41,075 nt of DNA from Bacteroidales bacterium (GTDB taxonomy: Bacteria > Bacteroidota > Bacteroidia > Bacteroidales > UBA932). A model generated the notes under the pieces. That model was not told the DNA's origin, made no database searches, and saw only the letters and a list, made by a program, of their open reading frames with translations. Location: positions 1 to 41,075 of the forward strand of contig JAFYRK010000132.1 in NCBI GenBank assembly GCA_017559545.1. Reading direction: 5' to 3'. The position numbers and the translations under genes are program-made. This document shows, piece after piece, positions 34,815-40,933 of this stretch; the first letter of the stretch is position 1, and every line of letters starts with the position of its first letter.

Positions 34815-37800
34815 CTAATACTGATCCCAGCTCTTGATCTGGATATCATCTACAGACATTGCGCAGAATGCACGGATGAAGGCTGTTGCCAGACGGGCAT
34901 TTGTGATAAGCGGAATGTTGTAGTCGATAGCTGCACGACGGATGTGGTATCCGTTTGTAAGCTCACCGGTAGAGAAGTTCTTAGGGATGTTCACCACCAG
35001 GTCGATCTCCTTGTTTGCAAGCATATCCATAGCTGCTCTGAATTTTCCTACGAGCTCTGGATCATGTGCCTCTGTAGGCCATATAACGCGCTCTGCAGGA
35101 ACACCGTTCTCATTGAGATATCTTGCTGTACCCTCTGTACCGAAGAGCTTGTATCCTCTTTCGTGCAGGAGCTTACATGCATTGAGGAGGTCAGCCTTCT
35201 GGAGAGGATTACCTGATGAGATAAGGATATTCTTCTTAGGAATCTCATATCCTACTGAAAGCATTGAGTTAAGGAGTGCCTCGTTGAAATCGTCACCAAG
35301 ACATCCAACCTCTCCTGTCGAGTGCATATCCACGCCGAGTACAGGGTCTGCCTGCTGGAGACGTGAGAATGAGAACTGCGATGACTTGATACCGACATAG
35401 TCAAGGTCGAACGCAGACTTGCGAGGAGCCGAAGGCTTCAGGCCAAGCATTGCTTTAGTTGCAAGCTCGATCATATTGATTTTAAGCACCTTGGAAACGA
35501 ATGGGAAGCTTCGTGAAGCACGAAGGTTACACTCAATTACCTTTATATAGTTGTCCTTTGCAAGGAACTGGATGTTGAATGGACCTGTGATCTCGAGAGC
35601 GGCTGCAATCTTCTTTGCGATCTTCTTCACGCGACGAACTGTCTCAACGTAAAGCTTTTGTGGAGGGAACTGGATTGTCGCGTCTCCTGAGTGTACACCA
35701 GCGAACTCAATATGTTCAGAGATTGCATATGCGATAACCTCACCGTTATCAGCAACTGCGTCGAACTCGATCTCCTTGCAGCGTTGCATGAACTCAGACA
35801 TCACAACTGGGTGTTTCTCAGACACTTCCGCTGCAAGACCAAGGAAGTTGCGAAGCTCCTCGTGGTTGTAGCAGACATTCATCGCTGCACCTGAAAGCAC
35901 GTATGAAGGACGAACGAGTACCGGGAAGCCGACCTGCTCTATGAACTGATCAACCTCATCGAAGTTAGTAAGCTCCTTCCATTTAGGCTGGTCAATGCCG
36001 AGAGCATCCACGATTGATGAGAACTTGTGACGATCCTCTGCCTTGTCAATTGAAGTAGCCTTTGTTCCGAGGATATTCACTCTGTTCTGGTCGAGTCTGA
36101 GAGCGAGGTTGTTAGGAATCTGACCACCCACAGAAACCACTGTTCCGTGCGGATTCTCAAGGTCATGGATATCCATCACACGCTCGAATGTGAGCTCGTC
36201 AAAATAGAGACGGTCACACATATCGTAGTCAGTAGACACAGTCTCAGGGTTGTAGTTGATCATTACTCCCCTATATCCCTGGTTACGGATTGTCTGGAGT
36301 GCGTTTACTGAACACCAGTCGAACTCTACTGAAGAACCGATGCGGTAAGCACCAGATCCGAGTACGATAACTGAGTTCTTATCATGCTGATACTTAACAT
36401 CATGGAAGTTACCACCGTAAGTAAGATAGAGGTAGTTTGTAGCTGCAGGATAGTCTGCTGCAAGAGTATCTATCTGCTTTACGCATGGAACGATGCCCTT
36501 AGACTTACGGAATGCACGTACGATATCTTCAGCCATCTCGCTGTCCATACCTTTATATAATGCATTTGCAACCTGAACGTCTGAGAAGCCCTGTACCTTA
36601 GCCTTTTTGAGAAGGTCAAGAGGCATCTGCTCACAGCTGTCGTACTGTCTCATCTCCTTATGAGTATTCACAATACCCATGAGCTTGTTAAGGAACCACT
36701 TGTCAATCTTTGTGAGGTCATGGATCTGATCTACTGTGTAGCCAGCCTGCATCGCCTTACTGATCACGAAGATACGGTTGTCAGTTGGTTCGTGGAGCGC
36801 CTGTGCGATGTCATCAACCTTGATTTCCTTGTTACCAACGAATCCGTTAGCACCCTGACCGATCATACGGAGACCCTTCTGGATGATCTCCTCGAAGTTA
36901 CGTCCGAGTGACATTACCTCACCTACTGACTTCATAGATGAGCCGATCTTGCGTGATACGCCTGTGAACTTAGAGAGGTCCCAGCGTGGGATCTTAGCCA
37001 CTACGTAGTCGAGCGCAGGCTCAAAGAATGCAGGTGTCTGCTTAGTCACAGAGTTCTTGATGTCAAAGAGACCGTAGCCAAGACCGATCTTAGCAGCAAC
37101 GAATGCAATCGGGAATCCTGTAGCCTTTGATGCAAGAGCAGATGAACGGCTAAGACGCGCATTCATCTCAATCACATAATATTCCATTGAATCGGTGTCG
37201 TAAGCGTACTGTACGTTACACTCACCCACGATGCCGATGTGGCGAACCATCTTGATTGCAAGGTCATGAAGGAACTGACACTCCTTAGCACTGAGTGTCT
37301 GAGTAGGAGCAACTACGATAGACTCACCTGTGTGGATTCCGAGTGGGTCGAAGTTCTCCATGTTACAGATTGCGATGCAGTTGTCATAGCGGTCACGCAT
37401 CACCTCATACTCGATCTCCTTCCAACCTTTGAGTGACTTCTCCACGAGCACCTGTGGAGAGAATGAGAATGAACTCTCGCAAAGTGTAACGAGCTCCTCC
37501 TCATTATTGCAGAAACCGGAACCGAGTCCACCGAGGGCATATGCAGCACGCACAATCACTGGATATCCGAGTTCCTTAGCTGCCTCCTTTGCTGCCTCCA
37601 CAGTCTCAACAGCGTGTGACTTGATAGTCTTTACGTTGATCTCAGCGAGCTTTGCATTGAAGAACTCACGATCCTCTGTATCCATGATAGCCTGGACTGG
37701 AGTTCCGAGCACCTTTACGTTATATTTCTCAAGGATGCCTGCCTCATAGAGATCCACACCGCAGTTCAGGGCTGTCTGGCCACCGAACGCAAGGAGAATG

Positions 37801-38051
37801 CCCTGAGGAGCCTCCTTCTGGATTACCTTCTCAACAAAGTATGCTGTCACCGGAAGGAAGTATACCTTGTCTGCAACCTGCTCTGAAGTCTGTACGGTTG
37901 CGATGTTCGGGTTAATGAGGATGGTCTCGATACCTTCCTCCTTCAAAGCCTTAAGGGCCTGTGATCCTGAATAGTCAAACTCACCGGCCTGACCGATCTT
38001 GAGTGCTCCCGAACCGAGCACGAGTACTTTCTTTATGCTGTTGTCAATCAT
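34815..38051 (-). CDS. carB: Carbamoyl-phosphate synthase large subunit
   Basis: Makes carbamoyl phosphate from bicarbonate, two ATP and ammonia for pyrimidine and arginine synthesis. The protein has two homologous ATP-grasp halves: the first starts IKKVLVLGSGALKIGQAGEFDYSGSQALKAL, the second near residue 565 with SVIVLGSGAYRIGSSVEFDWC. A C-terminal MGS-like allosteric domain follows (from about 930). Bicarbonate/ATP-site blocks such as VIEMNARLSRSSALASKATG and VIECNLRASRSFPFVSKV are intact, so synthetase chemistry should be preserved. The frame opens at ATG 38066, inside a dispersed repeat; I prefer the ATG at 38051, which gives MIDNSIKKVLVLGSG, aligned with relatives. It is downstream of carA, whose glutaminase site is lost, so ammonia must come from solution or another partner. 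Confidence 0.96.
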   Translation of the reverse strand: MIDNSIKKVLVLGSGALKIGQAGEFDYSGSQALKALKEEGIETILINPNIATVQTSEQVADKVYFLPVTAYFVEKVIQKEAPQGILLAFGGQTALNCGVDLYEAGILEKYNVKVLGTPVQAIMDTEDREFFNAKLAEINVKTIKSHAVETVEAAKEAAKELGYPVIVRAAYALGGLGSGFCNNEEELVTLCESSFSFSPQVLVEKSLKGWKEIEYEVMRDRYDNCIAICNMENFDPLGIHTGESIVVAPTQTLSAKECQFLHDLAIKMVRHIGIVGECNVQYAYDTDSMEYYVIEMNARLSRSSALASKATGFPIAFVAAKIGLGYGLFDIKNSVTKQTPAFFEPALDYVVAKIPRWDLSKFTGVSRKIGSSMKSVGEVMSLGRNFEEIIQKGLRMIGQGANGFVGNKEIKVDDIAQALHEPTDNRIFVISKAMQAGYTVDQIHDLTKIDKWFLNKLMGIVNTHKEMRQYDSCEQMPLDLLKKAKVQGFSDVQVANALYKGMDSEMAEDIVRAFRKSKGIVPCVKQIDTLAADYPAATNYLYLTYGGNFHDVKYQHDKNSVIVLGSGAYRIGSSVEFDWCSVNALQTIRNQGYRGVMINYNPETVSTDYDMCDRLYFDELTFERVMDIHDLENPHGTVVSVGGQIPNNLALRLDQNRVNILGTKATSIDKAEDRHKFSSIVDALGIDQPKWKELTNFDEVDQFIEQVGFPVLVRPSYVLSGAAMNVCYNHEELRNFLGLAAEVSEKHPVVMSEFMQRCKEIEFDAVADNGEVIAYAISEHIEFAGVHSGDATIQFPPQKLYVETVRRVKKIAKKIAAALEITGPFNIQFLAKDNYIKVIECNLRASRSFPFVSKVLKINMIELATKAMLGLKPSAPRKSAFDLDYVGIKSSQFSFSRLQQADPVLGVDMHSTGEVGCLGDDFNEALLNSMLSVGYEIPKKNILISSGNPLQKADLLNACKLLHERGYKLFGTEGTARYLNENGVPAERVIWPTEAHDPELVGKFRAAMDMLANKEIDLVVNIPKNFSTGELTNGYHIRRAAIDYNIPLITNARLATAFIRAFCAMSVDDIQIKSWDQY

Positions 38052-38060
38052 ATCGTTATA

Positions 38061-38094
38061 CGTCATTGCGAGGAGCGTAGCGACGTGGCAATCT
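38061..38094. repeat. Dispersed repeat copy filling the carA-carB junction
   Basis: CGTCATTGCGAGGAGCGTAG and the following 14 bases match 7022-7056 in ligA except for one missing base. It begins one base after the carA stop codon and runs into the first codon of the longest carB frame. It thus supplies the whole intergenic sequence, and translation of carB would have to start in or just beyond it. Confidence 0.85.
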
Positions 38095-38095
38095 C

Positions 38096-39205
38096 CTACA
38101 ATTTAGAAATAAATTCATCAAGTGGTGTAACATTCTCAGTCAGACCCACGCAAACTTCCGGCGCGAAGTTGAGACCGGCAAAAGGCTTGGTCTTGTGGCG
38201 GATACCGTCTACTGCACCGTCATTGAGGTTTGTGAAGTAAACCTCCCACTCTGACGGGATTGCAGAAGCCTTGACTGCACGATATACGTTTTGAGATGAG
38301 ATGTATGTGCGGTTTGTACCCTCCTTGCGAACAGGCTGGTTAGCACCTCTGTGAGGATGGTCAAGTCTTACGAGCTCGCATCCTGCCGCCTTGGCCATGA
38401 GATGATATCCCATACCGAAGCCGAAGACCGGCTTACCACCCTCGAATACCTTCTTGAGCACCTCAACTGTCTTATCGCAGTTACAAGTGCATCCAGGACC
38501 GTTTGATACATATACTCCATCGTACTCCATCTCTGTGAAGTCATAGTCATAAGGCACGCGGATAACCTCAGCACCACGAGCGAGGAGACCTCTGATGATG
38601 CTGTGCTTTACTCCAAGGTCAACTACAACGACCTTCTTTCCTGCTACTGTAGCTGCCTTGCTTCCGTTGATGTTCTCTACATCCTGAGCTGGTTTAGCAG
38701 GATAAGTGATTACCTCCTTGCAACATACATCAGCCGGAGTTGGCTTGGCCGGAGCCTCATGCTTTGCCGCACCTTCAGGAATGATCTCTCCTGTCATCGA
38801 GCCCTTATCCCTGAGGACCTTGGTAAGCTCACGAGTATCAATACCATAGATACCTGTAAGGTTCTGCTCCTTCATCCACTGCTCAAGGCCCTTCTCTGCC
38901 TCCCAGTTGCTGTAATCCTCACAAACATCAAATACGATCAGACCCTTGGGATGGATCCTGTCAGACTCAAGTTTCAATGAGAGGTTCTCTGCCATAAGTT
39001 CCTCAGAAGGAACACCATAGTTGCCGATGAGCGGATAAGTAAGGCAAAGGATCTGGCCGCTGTATGTCGGATCAGTCAACTGCTCAGGGTAACCGACCAT
39101 AGAGGTGTTGAACACAACCTCACCGCTTACCGCTTCTGCGCTACCGAATGACCAGCCGTGGAATTCCATGCCGTTCTCCAGACGAAGTGTTGCTTTAAGT
39201 TTCAT
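38096..39205 (-). CDS. carA: Carbamoyl-phosphate synthase small subunit with degenerate glutaminase site
   Basis: The 369 residues keep the CarA fold. The N-terminal domain is typical (GEVVFNTSMVGYPEQLTDPTYSGQIL, YGIDTRELTKVLR), followed by a class I glutamine amidotransferase domain from about 190. The glutaminase site is broken: the nucleophile motif, normally GICLGHQ/GICMGNQ, reads GFGMGYH with Gly264 in place of Cys. The catalytic-His motif HPEA reads APEV with Ala348. The substrate-binding SQNHG reads SQNVY. Only the Glu (350) remains. An extra CxCxC cluster (Cys239, 241, 243) follows SNGPG where relatives have Asp-Pro. The open frame is intact and collinear, so it is maintained as protein, probably structural or regulatory for CarB. 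It lies 30 bp after an attenuator-like terminator. Confidence 0.93.
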   Translation of the reverse strand: MKLKATLRLENGMEFHGWSFGSAEAVSGEVVFNTSMVGYPEQLTDPTYSGQILCLTYPLIGNYGVPSEELMAENLSLKLESDRIHPKGLIVFDVCEDYSNWEAEKGLEQWMKEQNLTGIYGIDTRELTKVLRDKGSMTGEIIPEGAAKHEAPAKPTPADVCCKEVITYPAKPAQDVENINGSKAATVAGKKVVVVDLGVKHSIIRGLLARGAEVIRVPYDYDFTEMEYDGVYVSNGPGCTCNCDKTVEVLKKVFEGGKPVFGFGMGYHLMAKAAGCELVRLDHPHRGANQPVRKEGTNRTYISSQNVYRAVKASAIPSEWEVYFTNLNDGAVDGIRHKTKPFAGLNFAPEVCVGLTENVTPLDEFISKL

Positions 39206-39472: not shown

Positions 39473-40933
39473 ATGTACATCAGAAACGAAGATACGATTT
39501 GCGCGCCGGCAACGGTGCCGGGAACTGGAGCGATTTCAGTGATCAGGGTCAGCGGTCCGGAAGCACTTGGCATTACCGATAAGGTCATCAAATGCAAAAA
39601 AGGTTCAATCTCTGAATCAAAAGGTTATACTATTAAATTTGGAGTAATACTTGATGATGCGGGAACGGTGTTGGACGAGGTCCTTGTAAGCATTTTCCGA
39701 GCTCCCCATTCGTATACTGGTGAGAACTCCGTAGAGATTTCTTGTCATGCATCATCGTACATAGTTTCAGCCGTAATGGACCTTCTTTATGCAGCAGGTG
39801 CACGTGCAGCCGAGCCAGGAGAATTCACCCAAAGGGCCTTCCTCAATGGCAAGATGGACCTTGCGCAAGCCGAGGCTGTTGCTGATGTCATCGCATCGCA
39901 GAATGCAGCGGCCCACCGCATCGCATTCAAGCAGATGAAGGGTGGTTTCTCTTCCGAACTCAAGGGCATGAGATCCGAGCTCCTGGAACTCGTTTCATTA
40001 ATGGAGCTTGAACTTGACTTCAGCGAAGAAGAAGTAGAGTTTGCAGACCGTTCACGTCTTGACTCACTGCTTGGGCAGCTCATTGCTCATGTAGGCAGAC
40101 TTATCGACTCATTCAAGCTCGGCAACGCAATTAAGAACGGTGTCCCGGTCGCAATTGCCGGAGCCACCAACACCGGCAAGAGCACCTTATTGAACTCACT
40201 TCTCGGCGAAGACCGAGCCATCGTTTCAGACGTTCACGGAACAACTCGCGACACTGTAGAAGAGACACTCAATATTGACGGCGTTCTCTTCCGTTTCATC
40301 GACACTGCAGGACTTCGCGAGACTGAAGAAACAGTAGAGAAAATAGGTATCGAAAGAACATTCAAAAAGATCAGTGAGGCATCAATCATCCTCGGAATGG
40401 TCGACTTGACACGCGACTTCGAGAGCACTTGCGAGACTGTCCACGAGATCATTGAAAAGGTAGATTTCAGCTGCCAAAAACTGGTCATTTTGCTCAATAA
40501 AACCGATATTTGCGATTTTAACAATAATGTTACTACAATAAACTTTATTGTTTCATCACTTGAATGTAAGGGCATTAAATCTAGTATTACTGAAAACACC
40601 ACAGAGTTGGCCAACCAGACCTCAATCATCGCAATTTCAGCAAAAACAGGCTCAGGAATCAACATATTGCGCTCTGTTTTAGCCGCATCACAACGCGATC
40701 TTCTCGCAGACAGCGACACAACTCTGGTCACAAACCAGCGCCACGTCCAGGCCCTCAGCGACGCCCGCACTTCCCTCCTTCGCGTCCAGGAAGGCCTCGC
40801 CTTCGGCCTACCAACCGACCTCGCCGCACAGGACATCCGCGAAGCCATCTATCACCTCGGTTCCATCGTCGGCGAAATCTCCACTGACGAAGTTCTCGGG
40901 AATATCTTTAGGAATTTCTGCATCGGAAAATAG
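39473..40933 (+). CDS. mnmE: tRNA-modification GTPase MnmE
   Basis: With MnmG it modifies U34 of tRNAs (5-carboxymethylaminomethyl-type). 486 residues: the N-terminal tetrahydrofolate-binding domain starts DTICAPATVPGTGAISVIRVSG. A helical domain with FTQRAFLNGKMDLAQAEAVADVI follows. The inserted G domain has G1 GATNTGKST (230-238), G2 in HGTTRDTVEE, G3 DTAGLRETE, G4 NKTD (342-345) and G5 SAK (389-391). The C-terminus is the invariant CIGK (483-486) with the catalytic Cys. The gap between G4 and G5 is 43 residues, longer than usual, and is Asn/Thr/Ser-rich and encoded by AT-rich DNA. All catalytic elements are present. Confidence 0.96.
   Translation: MYIRNEDTICAPATVPGTGAISVIRVSGPEALGITDKVIKCKKGSISESKGYTIKFGVILDDAGTVLDEVLVSIFRAPHSYTGENSVEISCHASSYIVSAVMDLLYAAGARAAEPGEFTQRAFLNGKMDLAQAEAVADVIASQNAAAHRIAFKQMKGGFSSELKGMRSELLELVSLMELELDFSEEEVEFADRSRLDSLLGQLIAHVGRLIDSFKLGNAIKNGVPVAIAGATNTGKSTLLNSLLGEDRAIVSDVHGTTRDTVEETLNIDGVLFRFIDTAGLRETEETVEKIGIERTFKKISEASIILGMVDLTRDFESTCETVHEIIEKVDFSCQKLVILLNKTDICDFNNNVTTINFIVSSLECKGIKSSITENTTELANQTSIIAISAKTGSGINILRSVLAASQRDLLADSDTTLVTNQRHVQALSDARTSLLRVQEGLAFGLPTDLAAQDIREAIYHLGSIVGEISTDEVLGNIFRNFCIGK

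Follow-up and report, generated by a model that had tools for sequence, protein, structure and literature searches.

Inactivation of the glutaminase site in CarA across a Cryptobacteroides lineage points to a probable ammonia-dependent bacterial carbamoyl phosphate synthetase

The window considered here is a stretch of 41,075 nucleotides (contig JAFYRK010000132.1 of the Bacteroidales assembly GCA_017559545.1), whose source genome presumably belongs to the genus Cryptobacteroides. It encodes both subunits of carbamoyl phosphate synthetase (CPS), the enzyme at the head of pyrimidine and arginine synthesis, beside a divergently oriented mnmE gene, and the features that bear on the present analysis are as follows.

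34815..38066, minus strand: carB, the large (synthetase) subunit of 1083 amino acids; complete and adjoining carA, with 17 of 17 checked positions present
38096..39205, minus strand: carA, the CPS small subunit, a pseudo-glutaminase of 369 amino acids; open frame, TIGR01368, PF00988 and PF00117, with orthologues in 19 further genomes
38162..38164, minus strand: codon 348, GCG, Ala at the catalytic His position; A, N, S, T or D in 19 of 20 clade members and His in one (L053)
38282..38296, minus strand: codons 304-308, SQNVY replacing SQNHG; the His312 equivalent is changed in 20 of 20 members and kept in 46 of 46 other class I sequences
38402..38404, minus strand: codon 268, His at the Gln273 position; His or Leu in 20 of 20 members and Gln in 45 of 46 others
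38414..38416, minus strand: codon 264, GGT, Gly at the nucleophile position; Gly in 20 of 20 members and Cys in 46 of 46 other class I sequences
38477..38491, minus strand: codons 239-243, CTCNC (CxCxC); not invariant in the clade and not counted as a metal site
39065..39067, minus strand: codon 47, Thr at the Ser47 position; Thr or Ala in 20 of 20 members and Ser in 46 of 46 others
39473..40933, plus strand: mnmE, the divergent neighbour of carA

By overall sequence and domain composition, the carA product is a CPS small subunit: it scores 330.6 bits against TIGR01368, an NCBI model named 'glutamine-hydrolyzing' with a cut-off of 307.35, and both PF00988 (CPSase_sm_chain) and PF00117 (GATase) are recovered above their cut-offs. 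However, only the last residue of the Cys-His-Glu triad remains, the three positions being Gly264, Ala348 and Glu350. The initial annotation of this DNA had described Gly264 (GGT), Ala348 (GCG) and SQNVY in place of SQNHG, in an intact frame beside an intact carB, and translation confirms all of these. Alignments place Cys and His in the corresponding columns of intact relatives, and we take these columns to be those of Cys269 and His353 in E. coli numbering. The retained Glu350 (E. coli Glu355) had gone unmentioned, as had four further changes, namely Ser47 to Thr, Gln273 to His268, His312 to Val307 and Phe314 to Arg309. Several of these affect the glutamine pocket of the E. coli enzyme (Ser47, Gln273, Asn311, Gly313 and Phe314). 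In the available text on the E. coli enzyme, Cys269 and His353 are both named as essential (PMC6245113). An Rfam search near carA returned no element at E<=0.1.

These substitutions are a property of a lineage rather than of a single contig. At E<=1e-10, CarA is matched in 258 and missing from 142 of a 400-genome sample of the genus. Twenty of the 400, including the genome of the window itself (G000), carry orthologues of 66-100% identity whose match begins at residue 1 or 4 and ends at residue 369; among the matches listed, the remaining CarA rows show at most 56% identity to the window CarA. The nucleophile Cys is replaced by Gly in all 20, none of whose frames contains an internal stop. The His353 equivalent is lost in 19, being Ala in seven, Asn in nine, and Ser, Thr or Asp in one each. 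By comparison, 46 other class I CarAs from the same genus and order have the Cys and Ser47 without exception and His353 in 44, the exceptions being L108 and the truncated L014. A broader set of 105 intact class I rows comprises several families, was not made unique, and leaves out the truncated L014 and the part-dead L108; both comparison sets consist of the loci read rather than of all 258 matching genomes. A collection of named genomes gave the same picture: the best 80 of its 217 loci include 19 of the dead type, each with Gly for Cys, and 61 that all have the Cys and His. At least 16 of these 19 named loci encode the same protein as a locus from the 400-genome sample. One of the named records, L115, is titled 'Clostridia bacterium' (RGIG2049), though it contains the dead carA of the Bacteroidales together with the beginning of its carB at 99% identity, and it is probably a mislabelled metagenome-assembled genome (MAG). 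In a midpoint-rooted CarA tree of 65 rows, the 20 dead CarAs form one clade (100/100) with a stem of 1.21 changes per column. Thus, the alignment of homologues from related genomes, which the initial annotation had proposed as a check, upholds a lineage trait. The gene neighborhood is likewise shared: mnmE adjoins carA in L044, in L045 and in all but one of the 19 named loci of the clade (18 of 19), the exception being L126, whose contig ends early.

A sequencing or binning artefact might be suspected because the named members are MAGs and the sampled genomes are incomplete, with G000 at 69%. This notion, to which we give practically no credence, is already contradicted by the occurrence of the trait in 20 genomes and 19 named records with differing sample names and hosts, by the presence of mnmE beside carA and by the purifying selection described below. 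Among the titles of the 19 named loci, 15 point to a ruminant, namely water buffalo, goat, roe deer, sheep or cow, and the other four (L112, L116, L121 and L126) name no host. The ammonia-rich gut that the initial annotation had invoked is a weaker side point, drawn only from these MAG source names, and an ammonia-rich habitat may have driven the change.

Across the clade, the glutamine pocket is eroded along with the triad, as only Asn311 of its five residues is kept in all 20 members. The initial annotation had also proposed that the CxCxC cluster beside the old site could bind a metal. The cysteines are indeed present in the window but are not conserved across the clade: position 239 is Cys in 19 of 20 members, position 241 is Cys in 18 of 20, and Cys243 is Tyr in eight of 20. 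We accordingly rejected a conserved metal site. Cys243 is moreover an old residue, being Cys in 95 of the 105 intact class I rows. The extra cysteines at 239 and 241, found near the old site in most members, and the Glu355 equivalent, kept in 19 of 20, could be taken to mean that CarA still hydrolyzes glutamine by means of a non-standard nucleophile, such as Cys243 or one of the new cysteines. Given the replacement of Cys243 in eight members, the loss of Ser47, Gln273 and His312 in all 20 and the loss of Gly313 in 19, we hold this to be extremely improbable.

Despite the loss of the active site, the dead domain has remained under purifying selection. We compared Nei-Gojobori dN/dS medians over pairs with dS<2, using 17 of the 20 clade sequences and 19 intact sequences; the pairs used for the N-domain, GATase domain and CarB were 86, 89 and 111 of 136 in the clade, and only 20, 74 and 43 of 171 among the intact sequences. 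The medians for the dead and intact proteins are 0.080 versus 0.088 in the CarA N-domain, 0.094 versus 0.074 in its GATase domain, and 0.012 versus 0.050 in the first 450 residues of CarB. Selection thus acts on the dead domain with about the same strength as on a working one, and it constrains CarB more than usual. The CarB of the dead clade is approximately four times more constrained than that of intact congeners, a difference not seen in CarA. The 105 intact rows have 106 conserved sites, of which the N-domain contains 44, the GATase domain 60 and the linker two. All 20 dead CarAs retain 68 of these sites (33, 35 and none, respectively), and 14, including 11 in the GATase domain, have disappeared from every one of the 20. 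L062 is an early-branching dead CarA. The CarB tree, built from the first 480 residues, likewise unites all 18 available clade rows (100/100), on a stem of 0.46 and with very short tips; this clade is nested within a group (98/91) made up otherwise of 19 intact class I rows from Cryptobacteroides.

By its residues, CarB itself looks like an intact synthetase with two ATP-grasp halves. The window protein scores 1506.8 bits against TIGR01369 (cut-off 1027). We placed 17 positions, comprising catalytic residues and three ammonia-gate residues, with the ATP-grasp residues following E. coli numbering; all 17 are kept in the 16 clade CarBs read, as they are in seven of seven intact class I and six of six class II CarBs. 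The gate residues of the ammonia tunnel in human CPS1 are given as Cys648, Ala667 and Ala729 in the accessible part of the source (PMC4655335). In 18 of the 20 genomes, a single contig contains CarA and, after it, CarB; the contigs of the other two, G234 and G160, break within about 30 codons of the carB start. A single CarB match is found in 15 genomes, a second CarB is present in G415 and G367, the matches in G311 and G147 are two partial, overlapping ones on two contigs, and none is found in G160 at E<=1e-60. Of the genes after carB, the two scanned are a catalase in L045 and a 133-amino-acid frame without a Pfam match in the window. The effective number of codons is 39.1 for carB, the third lowest of 17 window genes, and 45.2 for carA; the fairly strong bias of carB would suit a gene expressed at a substantial level. 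A consumer of carbamoyl phosphate is also retained, as the higher-scoring transcarbamylase group, of the aspartate transcarbamylase type, is found in 19 of 20 clade genomes, its motif being present in the eight loci read, five from the clade and three from controls. A second transcarbamylase, ornithine-type by score group only, occurs in 15 of 20, and G000 shows only the first type. Elsewhere in the genus, eight genomes (G005, G006, G019, G023, G032, G061, G062 and G063), six of them 91-97% complete, have neither a CarA nor a CarB match, and four of these (G005, G023, G061 and G063) have one transcarbamylase each.

The initial annotation had named as a check the search for a second, intact carA that could serve CarB. 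At E<=0.001, just one CarA is found in 18 of the 20 genomes, including G259 (95% complete), G416 (95%), G365 (93%) and G211 (90%), and G000 shows no second carA at E<=1. The two genomes with a second copy are G415, whose L108 has kept the Cys but has Gln for His, Asp for Glu and a short end, and G367, the earliest branch of the clade, whose L109 looks intact. A wider search for the GATase domain (PF00117) in 10 of the 20 clade genomes found nothing but the dead CarA and a partial match in GuaA in eight of them; G415 has three matches, G367 four, and four congeners with an intact-type CarA have four to five. This bears on the proposal that another glutaminase feeds CarB in trans, leaving the complex still glutamine-dependent. 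Glutamine itself is probably available, given that PurF and PurL persist and that 18 of the 20 clade genomes contain glutamine synthetase. Among the 10 genomes searched, however, the eight with only the dead CarA and the GuaA remnant, as against the extra copies of G415 and G367, make such a supply very unlikely.

The partial GuaA match revealed a second eroded amidotransferase. GuaA, the GMP synthetase, has 431 amino acids in the clade versus 527 in the control L218: its GATase domain has shrunk to a remnant of about 110 residues, which has VMAAGHD where the control has LLGICYG, and the later half with the His and Glu is gone. The synthetase domain is complete (PF00958, TIGR00884). In G000 the gene lies outside the window.

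C146:8225-9517 (outside the window): GuaA with a remnant glutaminase in G000 (L221, L318)

In the GuaA protein P0003, PF00117 covers only residues 3-76 (profile positions 1-76 of 190) and the score against TIGR00888 is 52.2 bits (cut-off 172.15), so that a complete GATase domain is lacking, and the stretches that bear the triad in L218 are missing as well. Among the matches listed, the 431-amino-acid type occurs in 39 of the 400 congeners, which comprise 18 dead-CarA genomes, 20 genomes without a CarA match and G397. The two dead-CarA genomes without it are G090 (71% complete) and G367, which has a longer GuaA. The remnant was read in 30 of the 39 and in G416 (L220-L227 and L319-L347 among the loci), covering 15 of the 18 clade sequences, and the GuaA of the other three, G281, G415 and G147, is known only from a full-length match of 90-93%. 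In 30 sequences, dN/dS is 0.038 for the remnant and 0.041 for the synthetase part, indicating that the remnant is also maintained. Approximately 95 further genomes among the matches listed have a GuaA match starting around query residue 116-121, in frames mostly of 320-360 amino acids that, by their length only, apparently have no GATase domain. Some of these genomes (e.g., G033, G066, G096) combine an intact-type CarA with a further, longer GuaA; therefore, the loss of the GuaA glutaminase is not strictly tied to a dead CarA.

A search for CTP synthase (PF06418) gave no match in 19 of the 20 clade genomes or in the control G334 (100% complete); it did give one in G367 and in five of six controls. 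PurF is the only class II GATase found by PF13522, in 19 of 20 genomes and with Cys1 kept in 19 of 19; this search is incomplete, as it gave no match in the control G066 (98% complete) or in the clade genome G147. Two controls, G068 and G334, whose CarA is assigned to the intact group, also have one class II match, and hence a single match is not special to the clade. PurL retains GICNGFQ, with the nucleophile Cys, in all 19 clade loci read, and the domain end with the His and Glu, read in two clade loci and one control, agrees in all three. We therefore rejected a genome-wide loss of all glutamine amidotransferases, and the retention of PurF and PurL implies instead a selective loss of glutamine use at specific steps.

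Inactivation of the nucleophile is not confined to this clade within the genus. Some congeners carry a divergent class II CarAB, the CarB of which is 41-43% identical. Of 11 class II CarAs read, eight have Gly at the nucleophile position, one has Ser, and two have Cys, namely L038, in which the His is replaced by Tyr, and L039, which has the Cys, His and Glu. In the class II loci L040-L043 and L103-L107 the Cys was lost separately from the class I clade. With class I sequences as the outgroup, the tree requires two or more changes between Cys and other residues, which could represent two losses or a loss and a regain. Taking class I and class II together, the genus has seen at least two separate losses of the Cys, and perhaps more. 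A different arrangement is seen in L031 and L032 (of G036 and G027), where CarA and CarB are fused in a 1462-amino-acid frame with the Cys, His and Glu, a layout like that of CPS I.

The absence of a CarA match at E<=1e-10 from 142 of the 400 congeners and, among the matches listed, from 20 of the 39 remnant-GuaA genomes, together with the missing CTP synthase in 19 of 20, raises the possibility of a decaying operon, in which the bacteria import pyrimidines, carAB is being lost and CarA is a pseudogene at an early stage. This is at odds with the 20 open frames, with dN/dS values of 0.09 in the dead domain and 0.012 in CarB, and with the retention of the aspartate transcarbamylase-type gene in 19 of 20. 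We also considered, and rejected, the loss of carAB as a clustered trait: on the GuaA tree, presence and absence of CarA are mixed just as shuffled labels would be (10 changes against a shuffled mean of 10.2-10.3, for 30 of the 39 remnant-GuaA genomes), a pattern that random incompleteness of MAGs would explain as well as repeated loss would. In view of the 20 genomes with the GuaA remnant and without CarA, carAB may be dispensable in part of the clade, although these genomes average about 76% completeness. We consider general decay of the operon to be an unlikely account of the locus.

Among solved structures, human CPS1 (PDB 5dot/6uel), an ammonia enzyme, gives the highest score for both CarA (260.5 bits) and CarB. 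This cannot be used as evidence of ammonia use for CarB: the window CarB scores 1196.6 bits against human CPS1 and 789.2 against E. coli CarB, but the corresponding scores for the CarB of G013, a congener with an intact class I enzyme, are 1206.3 and 818.3, and we rejected the argument for that reason. A class II CarB is nearer to E. coli (1042.4 versus 821.1 bits). According to the accessible text on human CPS1, its ancestral glutaminase domain is kept in an inactive form, with Ser294 for the Cys, and ammonia is taken from the environment (PMC4655335). Human CPS1 and the window CarA thus have in common a glutaminase domain that is present but lacks its nucleophile. They differ in that CPS1 is one fused chain of the urea cycle that has kept the His, whereas here there are two bacterial genes, the Cys has become Gly and the His is lost too. 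The same source states, in the part consulted, that human Gln318 replaces E. coli Gly293 and blocks the old tunnel (PMC4655335). At this position, which we placed by aligning the window CarA with CPS1, all 20 dead CarAs have Ala or Ser and all 105 intact class I rows have His or Gln; if anything, the old tunnel may be less blocked in the dead CarA, which we offer as a lead only. With E. coli CarAB, the window pair has in common the two-subunit layout, the domains and the CarB catalytic residues, but has lost the equivalents of Cys269, His353, Ser47, Gln273 and His312 in CarA.

Precedents for amide transfer without glutamine are instructive in other ways. The single-domain NadE of type N is a synthetase that uses free ammonia and lacks a glutaminase, according to the portion of PMC3376133 available; there the single-domain form is held to be ancestral, whereas in the present case the glutaminase was there and was subsequently lost. 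In Table 1 of that portion, neither CarAB (600 genomes) nor GuaA (730 genomes) is ever listed as lacking a glutaminase component (PMC3376133). The CPS III of Alcolapia fish is thought, in the accessible text, to have shifted independently towards ammonia (PMC7657897), but unlike the window CarA it keeps the triad, with one glutamine-binding residue changed. In the available parts of both sources, an inactive glutaminase domain combined with ammonia use appears as the hallmark of vertebrate CPS I (PMC4655335, PMC7657897), and bacterial CPS is taken as glutamine-dependent in the consulted text of PMC6245113. A literature search, covering titles and abstract openings with subscription journals mostly outside it, found no description of a bacterial CarAB or GuaA of the present kind.

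We return to the reading advanced in the initial annotation, a functional ammonia-dependent CPS in which CarA is a structural pseudo-glutaminase and which has converged on vertebrate CPS I. Lineage-wide fixation, the absence of a second carA in 18 of 20 genomes, purifying selection and the loss of the GuaA glutaminase in 18 of 20 lend it support, and although the use of ammonia is itself something that we infer, we regard this reading as probable. Under such a scheme, CarB would use bicarbonate, two ATP and free ammonia to make carbamoyl phosphate, with the ammonia entering CarB and reacting with carboxyphosphate. CarA would serve in assembly, keeping CarB folded or oligomerised, and in closing or gating the old tunnel, perhaps by capping or gating the route of free ammonia to the carboxyphosphate site. 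The product would then pass to aspartate transcarbamylase and, in most members, to the ornithine-type transcarbamylase. The glutaminase would have been lost once, in the ancestor of this clade of mostly ruminant gut Cryptobacteroides, with a phase of fast change in both CarA and CarB being followed by strong constraint on CarB. Some observations sit less comfortably with ammonia dependence: PurF and PurL keep the glutaminase Cys in 19 of 19 each, so that glutamine has not been given up across the board; the residue at the His353 position of L053 is His; and the glutaminase losses of GuaA and CarA are not tightly tied. CarB would also need a better affinity for ammonia, a property that sequence cannot show. 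According to the accessible text of PMC6245113, ammonia serves as a substrate of E. coli CPS only when its concentration is very high, and a better use of ammonia by the clade CarB is therefore predicted; the long CarB stem could be a record of such improvement.

A wider proposal, which we favor somewhat more cautiously, is that this clade has dismantled the channelling of ammonia from glutamine in at least two unrelated amidotransferases (the ATP-grasp enzyme CarAB and the ATP-pyrophosphatase GuaA) and has lost CTP synthase. Free ammonia would go directly into the synthesis of pyrimidines, arginine and GMP, and glutamine would be reserved for making IMP de novo with PurF and PurL. The system would be a natural bacterial counterpart of CPS I, its CarB having been re-tuned for low ammonia on the stem and then frozen. 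There is also a practical consequence: both the dead CarA and the remnant GuaA exceed the cut-offs of NCBI models named 'glutamine-hydrolyzing', and metabolic models of gut Bacteroidales could therefore misassign the nitrogen donor. More generally, if the complex is run on ammonia, the clade would represent a natural experiment on the conversion of a channelled amidotransferase into an ammonia enzyme, independent of vertebrate CPS I, for which L062, 19 further members and the intact relatives in the same genus provide the material.
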